This document shows, in pieces, positions 26,779 through 30,316 of a DNA stretch of 64,000 bases. A program made the position numbers and the translations under genes. Source of the stretch: Corynebacterium kalinowskii (GTDB lineage: Bacteria; Actinomycetota; Actinomycetes; Mycobacteriales; Mycobacteriaceae); assembly GCF_009734385.1 (NCBI RefSeq), contig NZ_CP046452.1, forward strand, positions 558,001 to 622,000. The letters are read 5' to 3'. Under the pieces are notes generated by a model. That model worked only from the letters and a program-made list of their open reading frames with translations, was not told the DNA's origin and did not search any database. Each line of letters starts with the position of its first letter. The first letter of the stretch is position 1.

Positions 26779-27345
26779 TTAGATCAGCGTTACCCCGAGG
26801 CCCTCCAGCTCCTGGAGGGCCTTTTCGCCGCTCTGCTCCGCTACGGGTGCGATGTAGTCGGTCAGAACGCGCACGAGAAAGCCCTTTTCGACGCCATCGG
26901 CAGCCGTCGCGCGCACGCAATAATCCGTAGCGATTCCCACGACATCAATCGACGTGACCTGCTTCTCCAGGAGGTAGTCTTCCAGGCTTTGCCCCTCATG
27001 CTTGCCTTCGAAACCGGAATAGGCGGCCTCGTATTCGCCCTTCAGGAAGACCGCGTCAAAGGCGAAATCCATTAGGGAAGGGTGGAAGTCTGCACCATCG
27101 GACTCGGCGACACAGTGCACCGGCCAGGAATCGATAAAGTCGGGGTTGTCAGAGAAATGCGAACCCGGATCGATGTGCCAGTCTTTCGTCGCCAGGACGA
27201 GATCGTAATCGTGGGCGCCGGCAAGCATGGCAGCAATTCGCTTAGCGACGTTGCCACCTTCCACGGTAGCGAGGCTGCCACCGGGGCAGAAGTCGTTTTG
27301 AACGTCGACGACAATGAGGGCATGGCTTTCATGTGATTGAGTCAT
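26779..27345 (-). CDS. pncA: Nicotinamidase/pyrazinamidase
   Basis: This 188-residue enzyme hydrolyses nicotinamide to nicotinate for NAD salvage. Catalytic Asp14 (VVDVQNDF), Lys102 and Cys143 (GIATDYCVRAT) are present, as are metal ligands Asp55, His57, His63 and His77. The spacing of the metal ligands equals that of the Mycobacterium tuberculosis enzyme. ATG 27345 is preferred to an in-frame TTG three codons upstream; GGGAAG serves as a weak ribosome site. Confidence 0.95.
   Translation of the reverse strand: MTQSHESHALIVVDVQNDFCPGGSLATVEGGNVAKRIAAMLAGAHDYDLVLATKDWHIDPGSHFSDNPDFIDSWPVHCVAESDGADFHPSLMDFAFDAVFLKGEYEAAYSGFEGKHEGQSLEDYLLEKQVTSIDVVGIATDYCVRATAADGVEKGFLVRVLTDYIAPVAEQSGEKALQELEGLGVTLI
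26799..26825 (+). terminator. Terminator of DUF3618 gene inside pncA
   Basis: GGCCCTCCAG (26799-26808) pairs perfectly with CTGGAGGGCC (26812-26821) around a 3-base loop, followed by TTTT. It lies within the last codons of the convergent pncA gene. Confidence 0.85.
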
Positions 27346-27380: not shown

Positions 27381-27412
27381 AAAAAAGTCAGGGTGGAAAT
27401 TTCTACCCTGAC
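27381..27412 (-). terminator. Minus-strand terminator, probably original tRNA-Lys terminator
   Basis: GTCAGGGTGGAA (27387-27398) pairs with TTCTACCCTGAC (27401-27412) with one G-T pair. On the minus strand it is followed by six T. It lies just beyond the tRNA-Lys 3'-end fragment and may be the tRNA's ancestral terminator. Confidence 0.75.
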
Positions 27413-27416
27413 TGGA

Positions 27417-27441
27417 TTGTGCGCCATGAAGGAATCGAACC
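27417..27441 (-). repeat. Distal attachment repeat (tRNA-Lys 3'-end fragment)
   Basis: These 25 bases are identical to 28850-28874, which covers the 3' end of the intact tRNA-Lys gene. The identity stops at both sides. Here the rest of the tRNA is missing. This is the arrangement left by a tyrosine-integrase element inserted in a tRNA 3' end. Confidence 0.85.
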
Positions 27442-27569
27442 CCGGAAAAGCGGAAAAGAATCTTGAGTCTATCCTCGACAACTCTGATCTTTTGTAAATT
27501 GCTGCTCGCTCGTTCAGTGATTGCGGGCTAATACGAGCGGCAGCCGGAAGTTTGCTGGCTCCTATGGAG

Positions 27570-28256
27570 TTAGCGGTACTTCGTCTCAGTTGGAGTGAGG
27601 AGAAATAGACAAATACCGTTATTGTCTTCGTATTTCTCGACTTCAGCCTTGATATGGACTTTGTCTCCTGCGCGTAAGTGGTCTGGAATGTTGTCGCCTT
27701 TCAGCTTCAAATCGTAGACGATGTTCTTGTCGCGGAATTGAAAAGAAGGGCCACCAACGAATACGTTCGCATCGTCTCCTTGAGACACTAGGATATTGAA
27801 GCGCGTTTTGTAATTCTTTGCAGGTGCCAGGGCTGCGATGACTCCATCAAACTCTACTTCACGCCCTTTAAAGTCTCTTGCAAACTCCTCAAAGAGCGGA
27901 GAACAATCGGCACGTTCGGTCATGATGGCAGCGAATCGAGGTGAATTCTGAATATTCAGTACTGCATGCGTGTCATCTTCTGCTGAAGGTAATGCTGGAG
28001 GTAGAGATTCCGGTGTTGTCGGATCTTCCGTCGACGTTGGCGATGGGTTTGAAGACGTTGATGTCGGGGAGCTTGAAGTCGGGGTGGGATTCTCAGCTGT
28101 TTTTGTCGGGGTCCTCGTGGAGACGAGTGATGAAAGTGGTGTGCTTGTAATGGTACTTGTCTGGTCCGCAGACTTATCCGGCATTGCTGGAAGCGCGCAA
28201 CTCGCCAGTAGCCCAACAGACCCAATTAGTGCTGTCTTATACAATGTTCGGAGCAT
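27570..28256 (-). CDS. Lipoprotein with DUF4839 domain
   Basis: The 228 residues have a signal sequence with lipobox LASC (Cys20), a long Ser/Thr/Pro-rich linker (about 30-90), and a C-terminal domain (about 115-228). The domain pattern FKGREVEFDGVIA, YKTRFNILV, FQFRD, IPDHLRAGDKVHIKAEV matches DUF4839. It is probably anchored on the cell surface. It lies inside the att-bounded element with more A+T-rich codon use than its neighbours, which indicates acquisition. Its role is unknown. Confidence 0.8.
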   Translation of the reverse strand: MLRTLYKTALIGSVGLLASCALPAMPDKSADQTSTITSTPLSSLVSTRTPTKTAENPTPTSSSPTSTSSNPSPTSTEDPTTPESLPPALPSAEDDTHAVLNIQNSPRFAAIMTERADCSPLFEEFARDFKGREVEFDGVIAALAPAKNYKTRFNILVSQGDDANVFVGGPSFQFRDKNIVYDLKLKGDNIPDHLRAGDKVHIKAEVEKYEDNNGICLFLLTPTETKYR

Positions 28257-28852
28257 CTTGCCTCACTTGGTTTGGTAAACAAACTCGTTCTAAGTTCTTG
28301 TAATTTAGCAATAGGGATGATTTGTTTTGGAATTGAATCATATCTCGAAATTTGTCTGCAGGCCTGGCCTGTTGTTTTCGTAGTCGCAAATTTGTATTTC
28401 GAGAGTCATTTTGAACTCTTCGTAACTACTTACCATGAGATTTCGAAAATAATGCGATGTTTTCATGGATTAATAGTAATAGTCGGAAGTTAATGGTGAG
28501 ACGTCTCAAAGGATGTGCTTATCTACACTCGTTGTGCGTTTCTTGAATCTCTAAAAGGATCGACTTATGAGCGGTTGTGACGATAAACCCTCCGCGTAGT
28601 GCGGTCGCGACACGCCTGGAGGGCATCTAGGGGTGTGGAAGCGGAGGCGAAGCAGCCGGGGCACGGTTCACTCGCAGGGGCCGATAGGCATTACGCGTTG
28701 CGGGCGAAGCGTGCGGGGGGCTTTACGGAAGTGCTGGACTCGTTCGCCCCGAATTCGTAAGTGGGGCATTAGTGGGGCACACTGTTGGGTGTGATCTGTT
28801 GGGGGTCAATGCAAAAAACACCGTCTGTACTGTGCAGACGGTGTTTGTTTTG
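28257..28852. other. Non-coding part of the tRNA-Lys element
   Basis: This region contains an inverted repeat TCTCGAAAT (28343-28351)/ATTTCGAGA (28396-28404), a 12-base perfect palindrome TGAGACGTCTCA (28497-28508), and a G+C-rich block (28570-28760). One frame of that block is open for about 60 codons and ends FTEVLDSFAPNS, just before the repeat. I do not recognise that peptide; a truncated integrase tail is possible but unproven. Confidence 0.4.
28814..28850 (-). terminator. Terminator after intact tRNA-Lys
   Basis: ACACCGTCTG and CAGACGGTGT form a 10-bp stem around TACTGTG (28818-28844). On the minus strand a run of six T follows. Confidence 0.85.
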
Positions 28853-28874
28853 TGCGCCATGAAGGAATCGAACC
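28850..28874 (-). repeat. Proximal attachment repeat within tRNA-Lys
   Basis: This is the second copy of the 25-bp repeat (other copy at 27417-27441). It includes the acceptor 3' strand, T-stem 3' strand and part of the T-loop of the functional tRNA gene. Confidence 0.85.
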
Positions 28875-28925
28875 TTCAACCCTCTGATTAAGAGTCAGAT
28901 GCTCTGCCAATTGAGCTAATGGCGC
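28853..28925 (-). tRNA. tRNA-Lys (anticodon CUU)
   Basis: On the minus strand GCGCCAT pairs with ATGGCGC, and the anticodon stem TCTGA/TCAGA encloses CTCTTAA (anticodon CTT). The discriminator is A and CCA is not encoded. Its 3' end is the core of a 25-bp duplication. Confidence 0.96.
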
Positions 28926-29146: not shown

Positions 29147-30316
29147 TTGAGAAAGTCCGTCGGTGTGGTAATCATTCCGTTGATTACGGCATTGTCACTG
29201 GTTGGGTGCACAATCGACCGGGGGACTGACGATCCGCAGGTTTTGCAGGAATCGAAGGTGGAGACCGTTGCCGTCGAGAAGCTGCCCCCAGTTGTCTCGG
29301 TGGAAGATGGTGCGAAGAGCGTCAGTCCTGCGGAGCCCGTGGTAGTGAAGGCGCTGGACGGCACGCTGTCTGAGGTCACGATGACTAATCAGGACGGCAA
29401 GGTCGTCAAGGGGGAGATGTCGGCGGATAAGAAGTCATGGTCCACCACGGAGGTGCTCGGGTACTACCGCACCTACACGGTGACGGCGACCGGCTCGAAC
29501 GGTAGCGAAACCACGGCTAAGTTCGCCACGCAGAGCCCGGCTGGAACGGCTTTTGTGAATCTCTCGCCGTTTGAAGGCGCGAATGTCGGTGTTGGTCAAA
29601 CGATTGGCATGCGTTTTTCGGTGCCAGTGCAGGATCGCAAGGCTGCGCAAGAAGCTATTACCATCACCACGGAACCCAAAGTAGAGGGCGCGTTCTACTG
29701 GCTCAATGATTATGAAGTGCGCTGGCGACCAGAGCAGTTCTGGGATCCGGGCACCAAGGTCACCGTTGACGCAAAGATTTATGGCGCAGACCTCGGTGGC
29801 GGCATCTACGGCAGCGAGGACAATTCCACCCACTTCACCATCAAGGGTGGGTACTCGGCGGTTATCGATGACAACACGAAGACGATGACGATTTACGACG
29901 GGGAAACCGTAGTCAACACGATGCCGGTGTCGTTGGGTTCGGATCGCTGGCCTACCCCGAGTGGCATCTACATGGTGGGTGATTCTTACCCAGAGATGGT
30001 GATGGATTCCACCTCATTTGGCCTGTCCATGGAAGATGGCGGATATAAGACACCGGTGAAGTACGCGACGCAGCTCAGTTACTCGGGTATCTTCGTCCAT
30101 GGCGCTCCGTGGTCGGTGTGGGCACAGGGTAGCCAGAACACTTCACACGGCTGCGTAAATGTCTCTATCGAGAATGCCGCCTGGTTCCAGCAGAACTTCA
30201 AACGTGGTGATGTGGTCACCATCAAGAACACTGTCGGTGGGCCAATGTCCGGCTACGACGGGCTTGGTGACTGGAACATTCCTTGGTCCGAGTGGAGCAA
30301 GGGAAACGCCCACTAA
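29147..30316 (+). CDS. lppS: L,D-transpeptidase lipoprotein
   Basis: The 389 residues have a signal peptide with lipobox LVGC (Cys21), two Ig-like domains (about 50-250) and a YkuD catalytic domain with HGAPWS and SHGCVN (Cys336 nucleophile). It makes 3-3 peptidoglycan cross-links or anchors proteins at the outer membrane face, as in mycobacterial LdtMt2 and C. glutamicum LppS. TTG 29147 is chosen because GGAGG lies five bases upstream; the ATG alternatives would cut into the signal sequence. A terminator follows inside the next, convergent gene. Confidence 0.9.

Follow-up and report, generated by a model that had tools for sequence, protein, structure and literature searches.

The prophage-like remnant PhiCULC22III of Corynebacterium ulcerans BR-AD22 is described as a 14-kb element of 19 genes that resides at tRNA-Lys and is bounded by a 21-bp repeat (PMC3164646). 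Mycobacteriophage Tweety and its relatives integrate at tRNA-Lys by means of a tyrosine integrase (PMC2884959), AICEs in Frankia also integrate at tRNA-Lys (PMC3218068), and the C. striatum phage CSP1 encodes a tRNA-Lys (PMC10987712). A genus-wide description of the tRNA-Lys site was not among the papers listed from the literature searched, outside which most subscription journals lie. Here, we analyzed a 64-kb stretch of the Corynebacterium kalinowskii genome (hereafter, the window), in which a small insert adjoins a tRNA-Lys gene. This insert is very probably a decayed tyrosine-integrase element that swapped the end of the tRNA and its terminator upon integration and was later reduced by deletions.

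The insert (27442–28849) is bounded by an exact 25-base direct repeat, with copies at 27417–27441 and 28850–28874. The right copy comprises the final 23 bases of tRNA-Lys(CTT) and 2 bases past the gene, and represents the proximal attachment-site copy on the minus strand. The surrounding tRNA-Lys gene, with the anticodon CTT, is intact (28852–28925, minus strand) and is recognized by ARAGORN and by the Rfam tRNA model at 75 bits. The left copy, also on the minus strand, is a truncated tRNA-Lys 3′ end that forms the distal attachment-site copy. Both ends of the insert therefore bear tRNA 3′-end repeats next to an intact tRNA, the arrangement expected of a tRNA island. An earlier sequence-only reading of this DNA had proposed the 25-bp duplication; the repeat is exact over its whole length and occurred in none of 100 shuffles of the window. 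The concern that it might be common elsewhere was not borne out, as the whole genome (2,510,218 bases, one contig) contains only these two matches when up to three mismatches are allowed. The insert has a G+C content of 0.487, as compared with 0.580 for the window, consistent with foreign composition. It measures 1.4 kb, contains a single intact gene encoding a DUF4839 protein, and was not seen at the same site in relatives. When its DNA was compared with the loci collected from relatives, the matches were confined to the terminator, a portion of the DUF4839 gene, and some marginal short segments. The tRNA alone was matched among the best 20 of 77 plasmid records, and the phage search returned only a 49-base match with an E value of 0.6. 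The host flanks are widely conserved in the genus. On the left, an isochorismatase-family gene (26779–27345, minus strand; PF00857), which we take to be pncA, is matched in 238 of 242 genus genomes, and on the right, an L,D-transpeptidase gene (29147–30316, plus strand; PF03734 and PF17964) is matched in 237.

The sequence-only reading had stated that the insert carries no integrase. This statement overlooked a remnant on the plus strand, in which residues encoded by 28587–28757 resemble the C-terminal end of Corynebacterium integrases and the stop of the frame ends at 28760; the feature at 28587–28760 thus corresponds to the last 57 codons and the stop of a tyrosine integrase gene. Its mean score against 11 integrases or fragments, taken from nine of the ten best genus loci and two Gordonia phages, was 83, whereas none of 500 residue shuffles exceeded 37 and none of 60 Markov DNA shuffles exceeded 36; the value is inflated because the comparison set was chosen by similarity to this stretch, and the shuffles were scored against the identical set. 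The remnant keeps the GH-S...RHY pattern of the catalytic end; one leucine of this pattern is substituted, and alignment with the counterpart in G172 shows a gap of two codons. The G+C content of the remnant itself is 0.66. By itself, the remnant gave no match in Pfam or PHROGs, and its best phage matches were weak, corresponding to the C-terminal parts of Gordonia phage integrases with an E value of 0.08. Upstream of 28587, one integrase could be aligned at 28% identity through stop codons, and we do not claim this similarity. Since only the last 57 codons of an integrase gene were found, and no functional one, the insert is at most a decayed member of the tRNA-integrated islands or prophages. 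Elsewhere in the genome, two other tyrosine-recombinase genes, in L193 (near 768964) and L194 (near 1367946), adjoin tRNA-Asn/Met and a tRNA-Val/Gly/Cys cluster, and these regions are perhaps further islands.

Matches to the remnant were found in 18 of 241 other genus genomes at an E value of 0.01 or below, the best being 1.7e-5. The ten best loci comprise eight integrase frames recognized by the C-terminal pattern, a fragment in G172, and one locus without a clear frame (G051). Among the eight weaker loci, the four inspected contained no convincing integrase, and the frame in G119 resembles an ABC-transporter protein. The Pfam integrase domain scored above the cut-off in three scanned frames from relatives (L096, L097, and L101), and the G172 fragment fell below it. 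A frame or fragment is thus available at nine loci, and at seven of these the integrase stop lies 63–209 bases before a facing tRNA, namely Thr (two loci), Lys (two loci), Asn, Pro, or Arg; of the other two, one lies 594 bases from a tRNA and one has no tRNA within the stretch taken. A hairpin-like stretch is visible by eye in the integrase–tRNA spacer of all seven. The distance from stop to tRNA-Lys is 92 at the present locus (91 bases between), 81 in G172, and 128 in G213, and the latter two represent the same locus, adjoining the transpeptidase gene. In G172 (L109:16389-17631), all that was seen of the related integrase at this same tRNA-Lys is its 3′ end, beside a gene that appears transposase-like by eye; this is perhaps a parallel case of decay.

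To place the site in the genus, the flanking genes were located in relatives (150 positions listed per gene), with 104 genomes common to both sets. In 71 of these, the flanks are divergent and lie no more than 80 kb apart on a single contig; in 20 they occupy separate contigs, and 13 show another arrangement. All 71 loci were searched, toward the isochorismatase-family gene, for a further copy of the tRNA 3′ end with matching orientation. Six, including the present one, contain an exact second copy of 25–37 bases, and the remaining 65 show at most 11 bases, so that the truncated copy described here stands out within the set. The other five loci house different elements of 8–17 kb: the repeats measure 37 bases around 14.7 kb in G214, 37 bases around 9.0 kb in G087, 36 bases around 14.0 kb in G199, 35 bases around 17.2 kb in G064, and 28 bases around 8.1 kb in G155, as compared with 25 bases around 1.4 kb at the present locus. 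Profile searches identified integrase, terminase, portal, head, and tail genes in the G214 element. The G199 and G064 elements have a similar layout by eye, with integrases 48 and 59% identical to that of G214. The G087 element contains integrase-like and helicase/primase-like genes, named by eye. In G155, the tRNA is adjoined by an integrase-like frame that runs in the opposite direction and matches the integrase of G045 with an E value of 3e-6. The proposal that the site is a hotspot thus gained support from five further loci. Empty sites, which together with other cargo between the same repeats had been suggested as a check, were also found: at 10 of 32 loci examined in detail, the gap is shorter than 330 bp and lacks an ORF of 100 aa. 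The ten include G191, G196, and G047, each with a pair of tRNA-Lys genes, and G045, which shares 65% transpeptidase identity with the present locus. Relatives with more than 72% identity in the transpeptidase were not found, and all of the empty sites lie outside the species. The flank-to-flank gap varies from 365 bp to 24 kb; this distance was rejected as sole evidence of insert size because shared ordinary genes fill many of the gaps, one cluster being present in 10 of the 32 loci.

In all three of the G214, G199, and G064 elements, a frame that appears by eye to encode a repressor-like HTH protein ends within the tRNA-Lys 3′ end (L071:16442-16768; L140:612-917, reverse; L142:18929-19261). 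The end of the protein should therefore differ between phage and prophage. By analogy with the integration-dependent immunity described for mycobacteriophage BPs (PMC4557955), this protein is a candidate for a similar function.

A minus-strand hairpin with a T tail follows each repeat copy, although a simple consensus scan finds only the right one. The hairpin at 28813–28849 (−18.0 kcal/mol, z −4.3) is the putative new terminator of tRNA-Lys, and that at 27386–27413 (−15.9 kcal/mol, z −4.5), the second terminator that the earlier reading had noted beyond the truncated copy, is the putative old terminator of the host, which the insert would now separate from the tRNA. We infer the role of the latter from the sister species G007 and G087, in which four proteins are 94–100% identical. 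G007 has an empty site with one tRNA-Lys and its terminator, and in G087 the site is occupied by the 9.0-kb element. Next to the distal copy, G087 has a terminator that matches that of G007, with a local score of 102 of 130 over 65 bases, whereas the terminator at the G087 tRNA is different though related (39 of 130). Over the 330 bases left of the repeat, G007 shares 256 of 356 columns with the host side of G087 and 194 of 365 with its element side; when the right flank is included, the corresponding values are 456 of 607 and 394 of 616. As judged by these alignments, the sister pair shows a terminator exchange. The terminator swap suggested by the sequence-only reading is therefore seen in another species pair, while at the present locus it is likely rather than proved.

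The terminator at 28813–28849 was probably brought by the element. It is 84% identical over 43 bases to the terminator in the tRNA-Pro spacer of G045, which follows a related integrase, and it resembles the distal-copy terminator of G214 (score 37) and the tRNA-Lys terminator of G175 (score 36). The tRNA-Lys terminator of G220 is also similar (91% over 35 bases), with no integrase seen beside it. Not all of these comparisons fit the simple picture: besides the likenesses to the distal-copy terminator of G214 and to G220, the tRNA-side terminator of G214, expected to be that of the element, resembles the empty-site terminator of G045 with a score of 45, the highest of 1128 terminator pairs when two repeated loci, the G007–G087 pair, and one tied pair are set aside. 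Such misfits may reflect either signals passed around by successive elements or, in some cases, chance likeness among short G+C-rich hairpins.

The T-stem of the present tRNA-Lys, GAAGG/CCTTC, is unique among 95 tRNA-Lys(CTT) genes parsed from 80 loci, among which L005 and G234 probably represent a single genome. CGGGG/CCCTG occurs in 88 of the 95 genes, and six others vary. The truncated copy (27417–27446) continues past the repeat with CCCCG, the 5′ strand usual in the genus, and so combines this strand with the new 3′ strand. This pattern may be due to chance, as it involves three bases, or may be a fossil of an intermediate. We rejected the T-stem change as proof of element-driven rewriting, since five other genomes also have unusual T-stems; of these, G046, G086, G088, and G089 contain no repeat, and G091 none over 11 bases. 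A copy of the T-arm that might serve as a donor for gene conversion was not found elsewhere in the genome at up to one mismatch. The search for a donor phage with a GAAGG-type core matched one viral contig, which was discarded as a phage tRNA-like sequence with no integrase seen nearby. That contig (L188:610-767) contains a tRNA-like gene with the same acceptor stem and an extra internal stretch, which ARAGORN does not recognize. A broader scheme can be conceived, in which elements at this site recurrently rewrite the tRNA-Lys end with their own 3′ end and terminator and then erode, leaving a swapped terminator or a changed T-stem. The truncated copy would then be the fossil of a mismatched intermediate, the tRNA would have been repaired later by compensating changes, and the DUF4839 protein would be a domesticated phage-exclusion protein. 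We regard this scheme as speculative and rather unlikely.

The surviving cargo gene (27570–28256, minus strand) has an intact reading frame, and its product matches DUF4839 (PF16127) with an E value of 3e-32 and 111.8 bits, against a curated cut-off of 25, as well as the phage family phrog_29396 with an E value of 8e-25. The N terminus is lipoprotein-like, with a lipobox recognizable by eye, in agreement with the DUF4839 lipoprotein gene proposed earlier. The protein is 42% identical to a protein of an unverified faecal phage contig. Its AlphaFold model has a mean pLDDT of 73 and a pTM of 0.59, with residues 101–227 mostly above 90, and is weakly similar to OB-fold proteins in the PDB (best E value of 6e-4; TM-scores of 0.28 by model length and 0.54 by target length). 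In a viral structure library, the model resembles proteins of which some are labelled lipoprotein or tRNA_anti-like. An OB-like fold is accordingly predicted from the model; among solved structures, the sequence search gave only a chance-level match (E value of 0.09). DUF4839 was present in 12 of 300 other genomes sampled from the family, and an alignment-based database search yielded 196 DUF4839 proteins, the organisms named among the 120 listed being actinobacteria. The name was not found in the literature searched. We would guess from the sequence and the model that the cargo may be a surface protein of phage origin, for instance one that acts in superinfection exclusion.

The insert is not common to all relatives, the condition that would have spoken against an insertion. 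The cargo protein is matched in 8 others among the 242 genus genomes, and in none of them was it found at the same site. The two convincing matches, in G205 and G029, are 41% identical and are located at a great distance from the flanking gene, whereas the six weaker matches (E values of 4e-5 to 6e-4) do not share a contig with it. DUF4839 as a regular passenger of tRNA islands was rejected: among 13 regions from relatives (11 of the 12 other family genomes, with G482 left out, and two genus genomes), only one, in G443, has a tRNA within the stretch, and none matched seven test integrases at an E value of 1e-3. In G443 (L116:2830-3120), which belongs to another genus, a tRNA-Ser(CGA), a terminator, a short integrase-like end recognized by eye, and the DUF4839 gene stand in a row; a tRNA-Ser repeat was looked for there and was not found.

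The repeats, the two terminators, the integrase remnant, the empty sites and other elements observed in relatives, and the terminator change of the sister pair support the earlier suggestion of a decayed island inserted at tRNA-Lys. At its attachment site, the element would have borne a duplicate of the tRNA 3′ end and, behind it, a terminator; the integrase gene would have had its 3′ end beside this site. Because this site carried both the tRNA 3′ end and a terminator, integration would have rebuilt the tRNA and supplied it with a new terminator, displacing the old 3′ tail, together with its terminator, to the opposite end. Subsequent deletions would have spared little beyond the DUF4839 gene and the last integrase codons, leaving the remnant stranded. 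We regard it as such because it exists in one copy, its integrase is eroded, and no cognate enzyme was found; the element is presumably no longer able to move.

The sequence-only reading had offered a second possibility, a minimal non-autonomous cassette in which two attachment sites surround one cargo gene and are moved in trans by another integrase. In its favor, both repeats are intact over 25 bases, the cargo frame is open, and the genome has six tyrosine-recombinase matches, five of them over the cut-off. However, the repeat pair and its cargo occur once in the genome and not in several copies or sites, the insert itself encloses the eroded end of an integrase, and none of the six recombinases resembles that remnant (scores of 23–30, the level of shuffles); no intact relative of it that might act as the cognate integrase was found in the genome. 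The lack of this cargo at the same site in the other genus genomes also argues against mobility in trans, and the cassette appears improbable. Tandem duplication is common at the locus, as tRNA-Lys(CTT) occurs as an adjacent pair at 15 of the 71 loci, but the decay of a tandem tRNA-Lys duplicate to its 3′ tail, with ordinary intergenic DNA between and no integration, is highly improbable, since the surviving piece corresponds to the attachment stretch published for C. ulcerans (PMC3164646), the two copies enclose an integrase remnant, and repeats of this kind likewise enclose elements with integrase or integrase-like genes in five other species.

The comparison documents repeated integration at tRNA-Lys(CTT) beside the isochorismatase-family gene in various Corynebacterium species, by elements with at least three different arrangements of the integrase. 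The sister pair illustrates how an incoming element can arrive with another terminator for the tRNA, and such cases help to find island remnants whose integrase has nearly vanished. The present locus itself is an ordinary end stage.

Compared with the described systems, the present element resembles PhiCULC22III in its attachment site; the repeat of the latter covers the same part of tRNA-Lys, from the T-loop to the 3′ end, but PhiCULC22III has 19 genes in place of one gene and an integrase remnant (PMC3164646). Tweety likewise has its attB at the tRNA-Lys 3′ end and rebuilds the tRNA with phage sequence, changing two T-arm bases; it differs as a 58.7-kb phage of another genus with a 45/47 bp core and an attP described as lying upstream of int and not at its 3′ end (PMC2884959). 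The siphoprophage-like elements of G214, G199, and G064 share the tRNA-Lys site, with repeats of 35–37 bases, but are 14–17 kb long and have the integrase at the tRNA-distal end, and the G214 integrase has no match to the remnant. The order of integrase 3′ end, hairpin, and tRNA is shared with G045 (at tRNA-Pro) and with G172 and G213 (at tRNA-Lys), which are among the closest to the remnant, although G045 and G213 have kept long integrase frames. Given the earlier description of the C. ulcerans prophage, with its 21-bp repeat at tRNA-Lys, the present element is another case of a known insertion type.
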